Below are positions 7,163-32,152 of a stretch of DNA of 35,228 nucleotides, one piece after another. The position numbers were made by a program, and so were the translations under genes. Source of the stretch: an uncultured bacterium (GTDB lineage Bacteria > Patescibacteriota > Minisyncoccia > Phycocordibacterales > UBA9973); contig CAISUD010000023.1 of NCBI GenBank assembly GCA_903888625.1, forward strand, positions 1 to 35,228, given 5' to 3'. Under the pieces are notes generated by a model. That model was not told the origin of the DNA. It worked only from the letters and a program-made list of their open reading frames with translations, and did not search any database. Within the stretch, counting starts at the first letter, position 1. Every line of letters begins with the position of its first letter.

Positions 7163-8279
7163 GACAAAAGTCGTAGTGGCAGAATTTACAAAAGGAGAAA
7201 AAAATCCAAAAGTTATTGGTGTGGGAGAAAGTGAAACAAAAGGTGTGCGATATGGTTATGTTATCAATCAAGCAGATGCTGTCACTTCATTAAAAATTGC
7301 AATTATAAATGCAGAAAAAAGTTCTGGTATAAAAATTCGCCGAGCTTTTGTTTCGGTAAACGGGGCGACTTTGCATTCTGAAATTAGTTCTGGTTTTTCT
7401 ATTATTTCAAAAGCGAATAGCGAAGTCACAAATTTAGATATCAAAAATGCTACCGAAGATTGTGAAAACAATTTAAATTTAAATAATAAAAAAGTTATCC
7501 AAAGTTTTCCAATTTCTTTCAAACTAGACGGCAAAGAAATCCTTGGACGAATCGAAGGTATGCGTGGAAATAAATTAGAAATAAAAGCTGTTTTTATCAC
7601 CTATTCAAGTCAACACCTAGAAGACCTACTGGGTGTCATCGCAGATGCTGGTGTTGAAACAATAAATGTTATCGCTGGACCGATTGCGGGAGCCAATTTA
7701 GCTATCTCTGCCAAACAAAAAGTAGTCGGTTGTGGGCTTGTAAATATTGGCTCAGAAACAGTTTCACTGGCTGTTTTTGAAAATGAAATTCCTATCTCGA
7801 TTCGTACTTTTTCTATTGGTTCTTCCAATATTACCAACGACATTGCCCTCGGTTTAAAAATCCCACTGGAAGAAGCGGAGGAATTGAAACTTGGCAATTT
7901 TTCTGAACAATATCCAAAGAAAAAATTAGACGAAATTGTTTCGGCTCGTTTGTCTGATATTTTCGAATCAATCGAAAATCATTTAAAAAAAATAAAACGA
8001 AATGAGCTACTACCTGCTGGAATTGTTTTTATTGGGGGTGGAGCAAATGTTATTGGCCTCGAAGAACTTTCAAAATCTTTTTTGAAACTTCCATCGAAAA
8101 TTGGTTCAACTGAAATTTTTGCCAATGCAAAAACTAAACTTCGCGACCCAGCTTATTTCACTGCTCTTGGACTTGTTGTCTCGGAAGATGAGAAAGTTTA
8201 TACCGACGGTTCCATTTCCAATATGTTCAAAAACGTTAAAGCTTCTCTAAAATCTATCACCAAACAACTCATGCCATAA
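7119..8279 (+). CDS. ftsA: Cell division protein FtsA
   Basis: SIGIDLGSAKTKVVVAE, actin-like ATPase motifs, GIVFIGGGANVIGLEEL. Confidence 0.93.
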   Translation: MIRNISIGIDLGSAKTKVVVAEFTKGEKNPKVIGVGESETKGVRYGYVINQADAVTSLKIAIINAEKSSGIKIRRAFVSVNGATLHSEISSGFSIISKANSEVTNLDIKNATEDCENNLNLNNKKVIQSFPISFKLDGKEILGRIEGMRGNKLEIKAVFITYSSQHLEDLLGVIADAGVETINVIAGPIAGANLAISAKQKVVGCGLVNIGSETVSLAVFENEIPISIRTFSIGSSNITNDIALGLKIPLEEAEELKLGNFSEQYPKKKLDEIVSARLSDIFESIENHLKKIKRNELLPAGIVFIGGGANVIGLEELSKSFLKLPSKIGSTEIFANAKTKLRDPAYFTALGLVVSEDEKVYTDGSISNMFKNVKASLKSITKQLMP

Positions 8280-8301
8280 CTGAGAGGCCTTGCCTCTCAG
8301 T
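8279..8301. repeat. Palindrome family A (copy A1): ACTGAGAGGCCTTGCCTCTCAGT
   Basis: Near-perfect 23-bp palindrome overlapping the last base of the ftsA stop codon. Confidence 0.95.
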
Positions 8302-9149: not shown

Positions 9150-9800
9150 ATGTCTATAAGAAAAGAAAATTTAGTACAAGGCGAATATTATCATATTTAC
9201 AATAGAGGTGTAGATAAAAGAGATATATTTTCTAATGAAAAAGATTTGCAAAGATTTTTTAAAAGCATGATCGAGTTTAATGTTAAGGATCCAATTGGAA
9301 GCATATATCTAAACACTTTTCATAAAGATGAAGAACTGAGAGGCAAGGCCTCTCAGTTGGTAGATTTTGTTGCATTTTGTCTTAACCCAAATCATTATCA
9401 TTTTATCCTCACTCCCCTTGTAGAAAAAGGCATAGAAAAATTTATGCAACGACTTGGTACTGGATATAGTTTATATTTTAATCAAAAAGAAAAAAGAACG
9501 GGCTCTCTTTTCCAAGGAAAATTTAAAAGTAAGCACGTAAAATCAAATGAGTATTTACTTCAATTAAGTTCATATGTAAATTTAAATAATTGTGATGAAA
9601 ATGGAAAAATAAAAAATTTACTAAGTATGTCTAGTTGGAAAGAATACATAAATGAATCAAATTTTAATTTTTGTAATAAAGAAATAATTTTAGGACAATT
9701 TGAATCTAAAGAAAAATATAAAAAACTTGCTTTGAGTTTATGGAAAGAAACTTGCAAGAAAAAAGAAGAAATTGAAGATTTAGAATTTATTAAACACTGA
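9150..9800 (+). mobile_element. IS200-like / REP-associated tyrosine transposase (RAYT, Y1_Tnp) coding sequence
   Basis: YYHIYNRGVDKRDIF, FCLNPNHYHFILTP (HUH motif), KFMQRLGTGYSLYFNQKEKRTGSLFQGKFKSKHV, YLLQLSSYVNLN (candidate catalytic Tyr). Confidence 0.88.
9335..9357. repeat. Palindrome family A (copy A3) inside the transposase reading frame
   Basis: ACTGAGAGGCAAGGCCTCTCAGT; read in frame as (E)LRGKASQ(L). Confidence 0.95.
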
Positions 9801-9818
9801 GAGGCCTTGCCTCTCAGT
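9796..9818. repeat. Palindrome family A (copy A4); supplies the transposase TGA stop codon
   Basis: ACTGAGAGGCCTTGCCTCTCAGT; TGA at 9798-9800 lies inside the palindrome. Confidence 0.95.
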
Positions 9819-11149: not shown

Positions 11150-11162
11150 AACCTCACCCCTG

Positions 11163-11190
11163 CCCCTCTCCTGGAAGGAGAGGGGTTTTT
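11163..11190 (+). terminator. Rho-independent terminator downstream of ftsZ
   Basis: CCCCTCTCCT GGA AGGAGAGGGG TTTTT. Confidence 0.8.
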
Positions 11191-11221: not shown

Positions 11222-12187
11222 ATGATATATGACCTGATAATAATTGGTGGTGGACCGGCGGGAACTGCGGCTGCAGTTTACGCCTCCAGGAAACGCTTGA
11301 ATACCCTACTTGTAGTGGCTGAATTCGGTGGGCAGTCGGTAGTATCCGAACAAATCTACAATTGGATCGGTTCTGTTTCTATTGCCGGATCAGAACTTGC
11401 CGAGAATTTCAAAAAACATGTTTTAGCTAATACAGGAGAAAATCAAACCCTAAAAATAAAAGAAGGTGCGAAAGTAGTTAGTGTTGCGGAAGCCTTGCTT
11501 TCGCAAGTTGGCGAAAGCAAGGCTTCCGCAAAGTATTTCAAAATAAAAACTGATACAGACGAAGAATTCGAAACAAAAACAATTTTAATAACCACCGGCA
11601 GTGTCCGCAAAAAATTAGAAGCTAATAATGCTGACAATTTTGAAAACAAAGGCCTCACCTATTGCGCCAGTTGCGATGGACCACTTTTTAATGAAGCTGA
11701 TGTCGCAGTTATCGGTGGAGGTAATGCTGCTTTTGAAAGTGCTGCTCAACTCCTCGCTTATTGTAATTCAGTGACAATCATAAATCGTAGTCCAAATTTT
11801 CGAGCCGATAAAATAACCGTAGAAAAAGTTTTGGCTAATCCAAAAATGAAATCCATCACTAATGCTGACATTTTAGAAATAAAAGGAGAAAAAATGGTTG
11901 AAGGAATTTTATTGAAAGATAAAGAAACTGAAAAAGAATCTATTTTAAATGTTTCTGGAATTTTTGTAGAAATCGGCCAAATTCCAAATACAAATTTTGT
12001 GAAAAATATCGTCCCGCTTGATAATCTTTGCCGAATAAAAATAGACCCTTGGACTGGTAAAACAGAAACGGCTGGCATCTGGGCAGCTGGTGATTGTACC
12101 AACATTTTATATCATCAAAACAACATAGCCGCTGGCGACGCCGTCCGTGCCCTAGAAGATATTTATCTTACACTAAATACAAAATAA
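11222..12187 (+). CDS. trxB: Thioredoxin reductase-like FAD/NAD(P)H oxidoreductase with in-frame palindrome insertion
   Basis: MIYDLIIIGGGPAGTAAAVYASRKRLNTLLV, CASCDGPLF (redox CxxC), VAVIGGGNAAFESA; the track start at 11189 is probably too early. Confidence 0.9.
   Translation: MIYDLIIIGGGPAGTAAAVYASRKRLNTLLVVAEFGGQSVVSEQIYNWIGSVSIAGSELAENFKKHVLANTGENQTLKIKEGAKVVSVAEALLSQVGESKASAKYFKIKTDTDEEFETKTILITTGSVRKKLEANNADNFENKGLTYCASCDGPLFNEADVAVIGGGNAAFESAAQLLAYCNSVTIINRSPNFRADKITVEKVLANPKMKSITNADILEIKGEKMVEGILLKDKETEKESILNVSGIFVEIGQIPNTNFVKNIVPLDNLCRIKIDPWTGKTETAGIWAAGDCTNILYHQNNIAAGDAVRALEDIYLTLNTK
11484..11531. repeat. Perfect 21-bp-stem inverted repeat inside trxB (family A-like)
   Basis: TTGCGGAAGCCTTGCTTTCGC AAGTTG GCGAAAGCAAGGCTTCCGCAA; 48 bp, in frame, encodes AEALLSQVGESKASA. 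Confidence 0.95.
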
Positions 12188-12217
12188 AAATGCTAGGTCT
12201 TGCCTAGCATTTTTTTA
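12187..12217 (+). terminator. Rho-independent terminator of trxB, with a family-A-like loop
   Basis: AAAATGCTAGG TCT TGCCTAGCATTTTTTT. Confidence 0.8.
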
Positions 12218-27032: not shown

Positions 27033-28238
27033 ATGAAAATCTTAAGCGTCGAAACATCTTGTGATGAAACTGGAATTAGTATTTTGGAAGTAACTGGCTC
27101 TAAAAATCCAACTTTTAAGGTTTTAGCCAACAGTTTAAATTCACAAATAAAAATTCACTCCCCGTACGGTGGAGTTTTCCCAGCACTCGCTAAAAGAGAG
27201 CATTTAAAAAACCTACCAATTCTTTTAGAAAGAACTCTTAAAAAAGCCAACCTCACCCTTTCCCCCACTCCTGCCAAGAAAAGGATCGATTTAATTGCTG
27301 TCACTTCTGGACCCGGTCTCGAACCTGCTCTTTGGACTGGAATTGTTTTTGCAAAAGAACTCGCTAAAAAATGGTCCGCCAGCCGGCGGATACCACTAGT
27401 ACCAGTCAACCATATGGAAGGACATATCCTTTCCGTTTTTGCTAAAGATAAAAAGGAATTTCAAATTGATAAATTAAATTTTCCAATCCTTTCTCTCCTT
27501 GTCTCTGGTGGGCATACTGAACTTGTCCTGATGAAAGATTTTAGAAAATATAAAATCATCGGTGAGACATTGGACGATGCCGCCGGTGAAGCTTATGATA
27601 AAGTGGCAAGAATGCTTCTGCTTCCCTATCCAGGTGGACCAGAGATCTCTCGCTTGGCAAACCAAGCTCGAAGGAGTTCTATTCCCCTCTTGAGGGGTGG
27701 CTCGCTTGCGAGACGGGGTGGAAAATTCATCCACCTCCCCCTAAAGGGTACTCCTCAAGAGGAGAATTTCAAACTTCCTCGTCCAATGTTATATACAAAA
27801 AACTTTGATTTTTCTTTTTCGGGATTAAAAACGGCTGTATTATATTTAATTCGTGATTTACAAAAAGAAAATCCAAATATACTTCAAAATGAAAAAATCA
27901 AAAGTGAAATTGCTTGTGAATTTGAAAATGCCGTGGTTGAAACCCTAGTTTATAAAACCAAAAAAGCTATTGAGAAATATAATGTTAAAACTTTAATTGT
28001 CGCTGGTGGAGTTTCAGCCAATAAACATCTTAAAAAAGAAATGCAAAAAATGACAAAAGAACTGAGAGGCAAGTCCTCTTTAAAGAGGCCTTGCCTCTCA
28101 GTTCTTTTCCCTTCAAAAAAACTCTCTGGCGACAATTCCATCATGATTGGAATAGCTGGATATTTCAAATATCTAAAAAATAATAAAAAAACAACTAGAG
28201 CGGGAAATATCAAAGCCGAAGGTGGATTAAGGCTATAA
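27033..28238 (+). CDS. tsaD: tRNA N6-adenosine threonylcarbamoyltransferase TsaD, carrying three in-frame palindrome-derived insertions
   Basis: ILSVETSCDETGISIL, HSPYGGVFPALAKREH, VPVNHMEGHI, LSLLVSGGHTELV, LDDAAGEAYDKVARML, FSFSGLKTAVL, LIVAGGVSANKHL, GDNSIMIG. Confidence 0.95.
   Translation: MKILSVETSCDETGISILEVTGSKNPTFKVLANSLNSQIKIHSPYGGVFPALAKREHLKNLPILLERTLKKANLTLSPTPAKKRIDLIAVTSGPGLEPALWTGIVFAKELAKKWSASRRIPLVPVNHMEGHILSVFAKDKKEFQIDKLNFPILSLLVSGGHTELVLMKDFRKYKIIGETLDDAAGEAYDKVARMLLLPYPGGPEISRLANQARRSSIPLLRGGSLARRGGKFIHLPLKGTPQEENFKLPRPMLYTKNFDFSFSGLKTAVLYLIRDLQKENPNILQNEKIKSEIACEFENAVVETLVYKTKKAIEKYNVKTLIVAGGVSANKHLKKEMQKMTKELRGKSSLKRPCLSVLFPSKKLSGDNSIMIGIAGYFKYLKNNKKTTRAGNIKAEGGLRL
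27372..27395. repeat. Palindrome family B (TCCGCC/GGCGGA) inside tsaD
   Basis: TGGTCCGCCAGCCGGCGGATACCA; in frame, encodes roughly SASRR between KKW and IPLVPVNHMEGH. Confidence 0.85.
27681..27767. repeat. Palindrome family C, 87-bp imperfect inverted repeat with nested hairpins, inside tsaD
   Basis: ATTCCCCTCTTGAGGGGTGG...CTCGCTTGCGAG...CCACCTCCCCCTAAAGGGTACTCCTCAAGAGGAGAAT; 29 codons, no stop in the used frame. Confidence 0.9.
28061..28102. repeat. Palindrome family A, long form (copy A5), inside tsaD
   Basis: ACTGAGAGGCAAGTCCTCTTTAAAGAGGCCTTGCCTCTCAGT; 42 bp, in frame (LRGKSSLKRPCLS). Confidence 0.95.
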
Positions 28239-28257
28239 AATATGATATATTGGGGAT

Positions 28258-30441
28258 ATGGATGACAAATTCTTAAAACCATACAACCCAAGAGAAACCG
28301 AAGACCGGATTTATAAACTTTGGGAAGATTCCGGTTTTTTTAATCCAGATGTTTGTGTAGAAAAAGGAATTACCGACAAAAATGCAGAGACTTTTTCTTT
28401 AATAATGCCCCCAACAAATGCAAATGGGTCTCTCCATGCTGGACATGGTTTAGTAATGACTATAGAAGATATAATCGTACGTTATAAAAGAATGCAAGGA
28501 TTTAGAACACTCTGGCTCCCGGGGCTTGATCATGCTGGATTTGAAACTCAAGTAGTTTATGAAAGAAAACTTGAAAAAGAAGGTCGCACAAGATTTGGAA
28601 TGGATAGAAATGTACTTTATAAAGAGATTCTAGATTTTACTTTGCAAAATTCATCAAATATTAAAAGTCAAATTAGAAAAACTGGTGCTTCTTGCGACTG
28701 GTCAAGAGAAAAATTTACTTTAGATGATGATATTGTAAAAACTGTATATCAAACTTTCAAAAAACTTTATGATGATGATTTAGTTTATAGAGGGAATAAA
28801 ATAGTATCTTGGTGTTCAAAACACCATACCTCTTTTTCCAATTTAGAAATTTTAGATGAAGAAAGAATAGAACCTTATTATTATTTAAAATATGGTCCTT
28901 TTATAATTTCTACTTCTAGACCAGAAACAAAATTTGGAGATAAATATGTGGTAATGCATCCTGATGATAAGAGGTATGCTGAATATACCCACGGGCAAAA
29001 AATAAACTTGGAATGGATAAATGGTCCGATAACAGCAACAATTATAAAAGATAAAGCAGTCGATATGGAATTTGGAACAGGAGTAATGACTATCACCCCT
29101 TGGCACGACCCAGTAGATTTTGAAATAGCTGAAAGACACAACCTTGAAAAAGAACAAATTATTGATGAATTCGGTAAATTACTGCCAGTGGCTGGAGAGT
29201 TTGCTGGTATGCATATCAAAAAAGCACGTCCTTTAATTATTGAAAAATTAAGACAAAAATGGTTAATTGAAAAAATCGATGAAAATTATAAACACGTAGT
29301 AAGAACTTGCTATAAATGTGGGACTATTATTGAACCACAAATAAAAAATCAATGGTTTATAAAAATGAAACCGCTGGCAGAAAGAGCTCTAAAAAAAATT
29401 GAAAACGAAGAAATAAAATATATACCAGAACATTATAAAAAAATTTCTATTCATTGGTTAGAAAATATTACTGATTGGAATATCTCTCGCCAAATTGTTT
29501 GGGGTATTCCTATTCCAGCTAAAATATGTACTGTCTGTGAACACGGCATGGTAGATATTGAAAATAAAATAACAAAATGTACTAAATGCAGTAATAATGT
29601 AAAAACAGATATTGATACTTTTGATACTTGGTTTTCTTCTGGGCAATGGCCTTTTGCAACGCTAGGTTATCCAAGCAAAGATGATTTTAAAAATTTCTAT
29701 CCAACTGATCTAATGGAAACAGCTGGTGAAATTATTTTCTTTTGGGTTTCTAGAATGATAATGCTAGGACTTTATATTACCGATAATATTCCTTTTAAAA
29801 AAGTTTACCTACACGGTTTAGTTTTAGATGCAAAAGGAAGAAAAATGAGTAAAAGTAAAGGAAATGTTATCGATCCAATCATTTTAACAGATAAATATGG
29901 TACTGATGCTTTTCGGATGGGAATAATTGTTGGGAATACCCCTGGAACATCTCTTTCATTGTCTGAGGATAAAATAAAAGCATATAAACATTTTGCAAAT
30001 AAACTTTGGAACATTACTCGTTTTGTTCTTTCAAACACAGAATCTTTACCTGCAGAAAACACTCAAGAAATAAAAATAATGGAAAATGATCAAAAAACTT
30101 TTGATGAACTAAATATTTTTATAAAGGATATAACTTCAGATATGGATAATTATAAATTTTATATGGCTGCAGAAAAATTATATCATTATGTTTGGCACAT
30201 ATTTGCCGATAAATTAATTGAAGAATCAAAGGATAAATTAAAAAGTGAAAATAAAGAAACAGTCTTATCTATTCAATATACTTTAAAACATGTTTTAGAA
30301 AAATGTCTTATAATGTTGCACCCATTTGTCCCATTTGTCACCGAAGAAATTTGGCAAACAATGAATCTAAAAAATAAAAAATTATTAATGATTCAAAAAT
30401 GGCCCTTCGACCTTGCTCAGGGCAAGCCCAATGACAACTAA
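28258..30441 (+). CDS. valS: Valyl-tRNA synthetase
   Basis: PPTNANGSLHAGHGLVMT (HIGH-like), WLPGLDHAGFETQ, KMSKSKGN (KMSKS), WDxS-type editing region; 727 aa. C-terminal FDLAQGKPNDN derives from a palindromic repeat. Confidence 0.93.
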   Translation: MDDKFLKPYNPRETEDRIYKLWEDSGFFNPDVCVEKGITDKNAETFSLIMPPTNANGSLHAGHGLVMTIEDIIVRYKRMQGFRTLWLPGLDHAGFETQVVYERKLEKEGRTRFGMDRNVLYKEILDFTLQNSSNIKSQIRKTGASCDWSREKFTLDDDIVKTVYQTFKKLYDDDLVYRGNKIVSWCSKHHTSFSNLEILDEERIEPYYYLKYGPFIISTSRPETKFGDKYVVMHPDDKRYAEYTHGQKINLEWINGPITATIIKDKAVDMEFGTGVMTITPWHDPVDFEIAERHNLEKEQIIDEFGKLLPVAGEFAGMHIKKARPLIIEKLRQKWLIEKIDENYKHVVRTCYKCGTIIEPQIKNQWFIKMKPLAERALKKIENEEIKYIPEHYKKISIHWLENITDWNISRQIVWGIPIPAKICTVCEHGMVDIENKITKCTKCSNNVKTDIDTFDTWFSSGQWPFATLGYPSKDDFKNFYPTDLMETAGEIIFFWVSRMIMLGLYITDNIPFKKVYLHGLVLDAKGRKMSKSKGNVIDPIILTDKYGTDAFRMGIIVGNTPGTSLSLSEDKIKAYKHFANKLWNITRFVLSNTESLPAENTQEIKIMENDQKTFDELNIFIKDITSDMDNYKFYMAAEKLYHYVWHIFADKLIEESKDKLKSENKETVLSIQYTLKHVLEKCLIMLHPFVPFVTEEIWQTMNLKNKKLLMIQKWPFDLAQGKPNDN
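30402..30430. repeat. Palindrome family D at the valS 3' end / PrsW start
   Basis: GCCCTTCGACCTTGCTCAGGGCAAGCCCA. Confidence 0.8.
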
Positions 30442-31120
30442 TATTACAATTTGGGAAGTTGCCTTTGCTCTGGGACTCATCCCATCGCTCCTTTGGCTTT
30501 GGTTTTGGCTTCGAGAAGAAAAGGGTAAAAAAGAACCAAGTGGTCTATTGGCTATTTGTTTTATTCTCGGAATGATTTGCGTAATTTTTGTTTTACCAAT
30601 TGAAAAATTTATTCAATCAAATGTCAGCAATTATCAATACCAAATTATTGGTTGGGCTAGTGCAGAAGAACTTATTAAATATATTGCCGTAATACTTGTT
30701 CTTTACAAAACTTGCTATTTAAACAAACCAATAGATTGGCCAATATTTCTAATCACTGCAGCCCTTGGTTTTGCTGCATTAGAAAATACTCTTTTTTTAA
30801 TAAAACCATTATCACTAAATCAAGCCACAGTCGGACTTTTGACTGGAAACCTAAGGTTTCTTGGTTCTACCCTTCTGCACGCTGTCTCGAGTGGATTTGT
30901 AGGAATTATGGCAGGTCTTTCGTTCTACCTTAGTGGTTTTACTAAAAAATTCTACATTTTAATTGGTTTTATTTTAGCCATCGCCTTGCATAGTGTCTTT
31001 AATTTTTTTATAATGGAGAATAATGGGAGTAATTTTTTACAAGTCTTTGCTCTCCTTTGGGTCGCAACAATTATTAATTTATTACTTTTTGAAAAATTAA
31101 GAAGAATGAGTATTAACTAA
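30431..31120 (+). CDS. PrsW-family intramembrane metalloprotease
   Basis: ASAEELIKY (EExxK), GFAALENTLF, LLHAVSSGFVG, ALHSVFNFF motifs; multiple TM. Start at 30431 (MTTNITIWEV) preferred over 30413. Confidence 0.88.
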   Translation: MTTNITIWEVAFALGLIPSLLWLWFWLREEKGKKEPSGLLAICFILGMICVIFVLPIEKFIQSNVSNYQYQIIGWASAEELIKYIAVILVLYKTCYLNKPIDWPIFLITAALGFAALENTLFLIKPLSLNQATVGLLTGNLRFLGSTLLHAVSSGFVGIMAGLSFYLSGFTKKFYILIGFILAIALHSVFNFFIMENNGSNFLQVFALLWVATIINLLLFEKLRRMSIN

Positions 31121-31153
31121 GAGGCAAGACCTCTTTAAAGAGGTCTTGCCTCT
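31120..31153. repeat. Palindrome family A, long form (copy A6)
   Basis: AGAGGCAAGACCTCTTTAAAGAGGTCTTGCCTCT, perfect palindrome overlapping the PrsW stop codon. Confidence 0.95.
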
Positions 31154-32119: not shown

Positions 32120-32120
32120 A

Positions 32121-32151
32121 TTTACCACTGAGGCAAGACCTCAGAGGTAAA
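32121..32151. repeat. Palindrome family A variant (copy A7) at the glutaredoxin 3' end
   Basis: TTTACC A CTGAGG CAAGA CCTCAG A GGTAAA. Confidence 0.85.
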
Positions 32152-32152
32152 T

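Follow-up and report, generated by a model that had tools for sequence, protein, structure and literature searches.

We found three palindromes inside the tsaD gene of the window (the whole 35,228-nt stretch of DNA analysed here, from a Nomurabacteria-like bacterium), all of them in frame, with the ORF kept open throughout. We think it likely that palindromic non-autonomous mobile elements entered three loops of TsaD and were kept as in-frame flexible peptides at tolerant positions: palindrome 3 as a REPIN-like doublet whose probable mover is the transposase encoded at 9150-9800, palindrome 2 as a member of a longer branched class, and palindrome 1 as a member of the TCCGCC/GGCGGA family. tsaD is an essential gene, and the palindromes add peptides to loops of its product; GVSQADGPRGSAPR is an example of an insert-encoded peptide.

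27033-28238, + strand: tsaD, 401 aa, host of the three palindromes (TIGR03723 343 bits, PF00814)
27375-27390, no strand assigned: palindrome 1, TCCGCCAGCCGGCGGA, encoding SASRR, TsaD residues 115-119
27681-27767, no strand assigned: palindrome 2, a branched structured element encoding IPLLRGGSLARRGGKFIHLPLKGTPQEEN, TsaD residues 217-245
28061-28102, no strand assigned: palindrome 3, a REPIN-like doublet of REP family 1, encoding (E)LRGKSSLKRPCLS

Palindromes and loops of TsaD

The tsaD ORF, its coordinates and the peptides had been given by an earlier, sequence-only reading, and all were correct; the profile search put the ORF well into the TIGR03723 equivalog (cut-off 296 bits). The same reading had placed palindrome 1 at 27372-27395. 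This 24-nt stretch is palindromic, but we take the 16-mer at 27375-27390 within it as the palindrome, the longer stretch being weaker (fold z -2.9, 2/200 shuffles). Palindrome 2 had been described as an 87-bp inverted repeat; an in-frame element does occupy that span, but it is not one simple inverted repeat, since its 18-nt outer arms (89% complementary) are 51 nt apart and enclose three small hairpins (z -5.0, 0/200 shuffles). Palindrome 3 was as described, a near-perfect 42-bp palindrome in frame, with an extended form at 28055-28108 that is 97% complementary (z -7.4, 0/200 shuffles).

TsaD was compared at three sites (C, E and F, for palindromes 1, 2 and 3) with relatives from Candidatus Nomurabacteria and neighbours. 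Site C has 10 residues here versus 6 in 38 of the 43 relatives counted, site E has 38 versus 9-20 in the short class of relatives, and site F has 35 versus a median of 25. In TsaD proteins of known structure the first two inserts are missing and appear as alignment gaps. The peptides had been called extra sequence, and the alignment agrees: they are mostly absent from relatives, or unrelated palindromes occupy the same loops. Net gains are about 4, 20-25 and 10 residues at palindromes 1, 2 and 3, below the palindrome lengths, so either the borders are not exact or some residues at the site were exchanged as well.

The suggestion that the inserts sit in loops was upheld by an AF2 model of TsaD (40 sequences, mean pLDDT 88), which locates them between secondary-structure elements. 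SASRR lies in the loop that links helix 97-114 to strand 122-126, and the palindrome 3 peptide covers the end of helix 331-346 and the loop ahead of strand 356-358. Residues 220-240, most of the palindrome 2 peptide, have pLDDT below 50.

The 212-247 loop is a repeated landing site in relatives. It is long in 36 of 48 genes, and the mean fold z there is -5.0 for long loops versus -0.8 for short ones and about 0 for control segments. In one TsaD (L045) a related copy of palindrome 2 fills the same loop. When 105 distinct TsaD genes are taken together, palindromes with no sequence relation to one another gather at residues 58-84, 132-140, 205-247, 333-359 and 384-401. Palindromes with a AGGCAAGACCT core were also seen in the TsaD of L266 and L258, at residues 73-82 and 339-357 (window numbering); this core is thus used outside the present genome.

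Element families and their hosts

A palindrome scan of 894 kb of the metagenome-assembled genome (MAG; GC at least 0.4, score at least 11) found 61 palindromes versus 1 in a Markov-1 control, so that palindromes exceed chance. ORFs take up about 93% of the MAG; genic location alone therefore proves little, and frame use is the stronger argument.

Palindrome 3 is an inverted pair of the REP-like unit ACTGAGAGGCAAG, laid out as ACTGAGAGGCAAGTCCTC-TTTAAA-GAGGCCTTGCCTCTCAGT. Other copies of the family lie in the window, and the three in or beside the transposase gene are single units, ACTGAGAGGCCTTGCCTCTCAGT.

9150-9800, + strand: RAYT-like Y1/HUH transposase, HYH motif, Tyr142, PF01797
9105-9127, no strand assigned: REP family 1 copy upstream of the transposase
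9335-9357, no strand assigned: in-frame REP family 1 copy within the transposase coding sequence, read as ELRGKASQL, shortly ahead of the HUH strand
9796-9818, no strand assigned: REP family 1 copy at the stop codon of the transposase
8279-8301, no strand assigned: REP family 1 singlet, intergenic
31115-31153, no strand assigned: REP family 1 doublet, intergenic

The transposase lies 18 kb from palindrome 3, and we take it for the probable mover because its gene bears the same REP unit at both ends. It scored 30.9 bits against PF01797 (cut-off 23), and HxH and Tyr142 are invariant in the transposase alignment, meeting the RAYT criterion of a Y1/HUH domain with a catalytic Tyr. Against NF047646, the model for REP-associated tyrosine transposases, it reached just 26.1 bits where 80 are required. 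Searching the PDB by sequence gave no match for it, and a fold from the single sequence (pLDDT 33) was discarded. Inspection by eye of the flanks of REP family 1 copies revealed no conserved GTAG. Across 59 further genomes of the genus the family is nearly absent, which is what one expects when an element and its transposase form a pair.

The MAG encodes three such transposases; every one has a REP of its own on its flanks, and further copies of that REP occur in the genome (flanks ACTAGGCAAGACCTAGT for the C39 transposase and AACAGGCAAGGCCTGTT for that of C34). REP units of other families were seen in the window at 12186-12214 (AAAAATGCTAGGCAAGACCTAGCATTTTT, with the stem of the C39 transposase REP) and 32120-32152 (ATTTACCACTGAGGCAAGACCTCAGAGGTAAAT). 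A census of GGCAARNCC-core hairpins counted 43 elements in the genome, 12 of them doublets, and so met the REP/REPIN criterion of a short multi-copy palindrome that often forms inverted doublets. ORFs of at least 130 aa contain 7/12 doublets versus 7/31 singlets (Fisher p 0.035), some of these ORFs being perhaps spurious.

Doublets of the REP superfamily are in frame in GatA, LigA, RNase R, PheT, MurD and RecJ, and in-frame palindromes of any class in these and in MurE and MurB (families checked). The window holds a further case.

11484-11531, no strand assigned: 48-nt in-frame palindrome of a thioredoxin reductase-like gene (VAEALLSQVGESKASA)

Around this palindrome the best PDB match, 1fl2, has a gap of 11 residues. 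Against PDB sequences, LigA residues 173-199 and 464-499 were unmatched and a short gap fell at LEARPLSRGLAS, which supports extra sequence. GatA was dropped as a clean insertion; the PDB alignment shows its palindrome in place of a linker, and the protein is hardly any longer for it. This near-zero gain, together with the small gains in TsaD, indicates that some copies may arise by conversion or replacement instead of clean insertion.

Two other palindromic stretches of the window were noted. Just upstream of the thioredoxin reductase-like gene (11150-11190) is CCTCACCCCTGCCCCTCTCCTGGAAGGAGAGGGG; it represents a second class of palindromes (CCCCTCTCC..GGAGAGGGG), one often found in the MAG. 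At 30406-30434 the end of a ValS-like ORF, FDLAQGKP, is encoded by the imperfect palindrome CCCTTCGACCTTGCTCAGGGCAAGCCC, which presumably resembles a motif of many other bacteria.

The sequence-only reading had made recurrence in the genome a touchstone, and palindromes 2 and 3 are indeed multi-copy, but palindrome 1 has a single exact copy. A second full copy of palindrome 2 lies on C60, and C35, C39, C1 and C33 have partial ones; two of the inner hairpins have changed in sequence between the C60 copy and that in tsaD without loss of pairing. Palindrome 2 belongs to a longer branched element class, for which no transposase has been identified. Palindrome 1, with one exact and two near copies in the MAG, is the weak point of the multi-copy argument. 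It belongs to the short TCCGCC/GGCGGA family without known mover; the family pattern TCCGCCNNNNGGCGGA occurs, dispersed, in 28 of 60 genus genomes with up to 12 copies, while its backward control pattern occurs in one genome only.

Frame use was counted for a 65-nt element of the TsaD 212-247 loop, found in 37/60 genomes with up to 8 copies; 58 of the 61 copies read sit inside ORFs. The reference copy has no stop in any of its six frames, yet 56 genic copies use only two: a single frame serves all 26 sense copies (GVSQADGPRGSAPRARGDSDP), and one other serves 30 of the 32 antisense ones (GSLSPRARGALPLGSSACETP). Per-copy probabilities of about 1e-12 are overstated, since copies at the same site may be inherited; with each site counted once, roughly nine sense and ten antisense sites agree in frame by our count. 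The copies fall in 16 ORF clusters, or about 14 without one odd and one probably spurious case. Hosts whose family was checked are TsaD (by motifs), a PcrA/UvrD-type helicase (the copy of the present genome), MnmA and Tgt; on our reading of the sequences, RsmA, UvrB, RecG, LeuS, IleS, Cca, PolA and peptide deformylase may be further hosts. Both orientations occur in TsaD, helicase, Tgt and RecG-like genes. No transposase has been identified for this element. The copy in the helicase lies near 35578-35642 of C20; another peptide of this helicase, LGSCDGDGQRKFLAENFRAF, apparently represents a second element class that is also present in the TsaD of L030.

Alternative explanations and known systems

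The evidence for mobility is wholly comparative: insertion, excision and transposase activity were unobserved, and what sequence comparison supports directly is the positions, the frame, the shorter homologous loops in relatives, the multi-copy nature (weak for palindrome 1) and the pairing of transposase and REP. The palindromes might thus never have moved, TsaD loops being ancestrally variable and the palindromes made locally by template-switching or hairpin-templated repair. Net gains that differ from palindrome lengths, the unchanged linker length of GatA, and hairpin arms that vary between copies with pairing kept would all suit such an origin. We nevertheless hold it improbable, given that the same sequences recur in unrelated genes and at intergenic sites, that both orientations are found at one site, and that sequences match transposase ends.

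Less weight still can be given to the idea that the palindromes serve tsaD as conserved functional RNAs or regulatory elements, with an mRNA structure that controls translation or stability, and are translated only incidentally. The coding strand folds strongly, and its folding is weaker where one element class is present in reverse orientation (L034, L039, L148, L150), as such a role might predict. However, sequence, class, orientation and presence vary among close relatives, several of whose loops are short and unstructured, the same elements occur in many unrelated genes, and an Rfam search of the window returned only tRNAs; regulatory RNA was rejected as the main explanation. That repeats were collapsed or misjoined in assembly is conceivable for a MAG of 64 contigs, but barely credible when the frame is intact through every insert and comparable inserts fill the same loops in many independently assembled genomes, and on these grounds an artefact was likewise rejected.

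In our preferred explanation, entry by mobile elements, the transposase would, in the case of palindrome 3, act on single-stranded REP hairpins, now and then moving REP pairs; the TnpA-REP of other bacteria acts on such hairpins (PMC8266576). Frame-keeping insertions at tolerant loops would survive and out-of-frame insertions would be lost by purifying selection. The inserts are inferred to be near-neutral for TsaD, their function being untested.

The tsaD inserts had been likened to Rickettsia palindromic elements (RPEs; Ogata 2000/2002, cited in PMC10969869), and this is supported as a likeness. RPEs are translated palindromic repeats in frame in unrelated core genes, with several families per genome, and their criterion of an in-frame palindromic insert in a functional protein gene is met here. 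The relation rests on analogy and does not amount to membership, no sequence comparison with RPEs having been made; this is another phylum, one family here is paired with a transposase, and the elements here measure 16-105 nt.

For palindrome 3 the REPIN-like RAYT/REP systems are a closer match. In Pseudomonas (Bertels and Rainey, 2011; PMC3116915), inverted REP doublets form families each tied to a tyrosine transposase, as here; those REPs are primarily extragenic (14/1,067 of the most abundant 16-mers overlap genes), whereas 7/12 doublets are intragenic here and copy numbers are low. The GTAG/CGTC REPs and REPtrons (Di Nocera, 2013; PMC3733652) resemble ours further in what the accessible portions of that paper report: REPs inside ORFs, over half of them dimers, many in DNA repair (DNA ligase included) and tRNA genes, and RAYT genes with REP flanks. 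RPE-4 and RPE-6 are treated there as CGTC REPs. Those REPs are mostly intergenic, and the GTAG/CGTC tag is not seen here; the same portions mention overlap with transposase gene ends and no copy inside a RAYT gene, unlike here. The missed NCBIfam RAYT cut-off and the internal REP of transposase genes also set our elements apart from known REPs and RAYTs.

Intragenic REPs and RPEs are already known, and in-frame palindromes are not a new kind. What looks new is the extent of the phenomenon in Patescibacteria, the preference for particular frames, and the match between the internal REP of transposase genes and the flanks of those genes. We found no report of REP/RAYT elements in Patescibacteria in the open-access literature, which is weak negative evidence.

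Transposases with an internal palindrome

We sampled 71 transposase loci, of which 59 have a usable flanking palindrome. At a match score of at least 12, 49/59 flanks (83%) find a counterpart within the ORF of their own locus, versus 4.8% between loci; mean flank-ORF scores are 18.1 and 7.2, respectively, and none of 20,000 permutations, uncorrected for relatedness, reached the observed mean. The own ORF is the strictly best match for only 28 of the 59 flanks, close homologs sharing REPs. By that scoring, most internal copies are found 18-29 residues ahead of the HUH motif or 66-71 past it. A sample from across the phylum included 16 loci whose ORF was recognised; five of them have an internal REP, at -15 to -25 or +76.

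We put forward, tentatively and with more doubt than confidence, that in RAYT-like transposases of Patescibacteria the own recognition palindrome is a fixed in-frame coding part, 15-29 residues before or 66-76 after HUH, changing in concert with both flanks. The recognised DNA would thus encode an enzyme loop, as an autoregulatory site or a part of specificity.

With these results, palindromes that code for protein are known not only from Rickettsia and a few species rich in REPs but also from a streamlined lineage of a candidate phylum, in many of its core genes. We know of no mobilising enzyme for RPEs; here one in-frame palindrome family is tied to a probable one. The 65-nt element, with six open frames of which almost always the same one is used on each strand, makes selection on inserted selfish peptides measurable. 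If the proposal on the transposases is true, the palindrome recognised by a RAYT-like transposase doubles as code for a loop of the enzyme. The transposases with a matching internal REP offer a natural series of about 50 enzyme-palindrome pairs for studying how REP recognition evolves.
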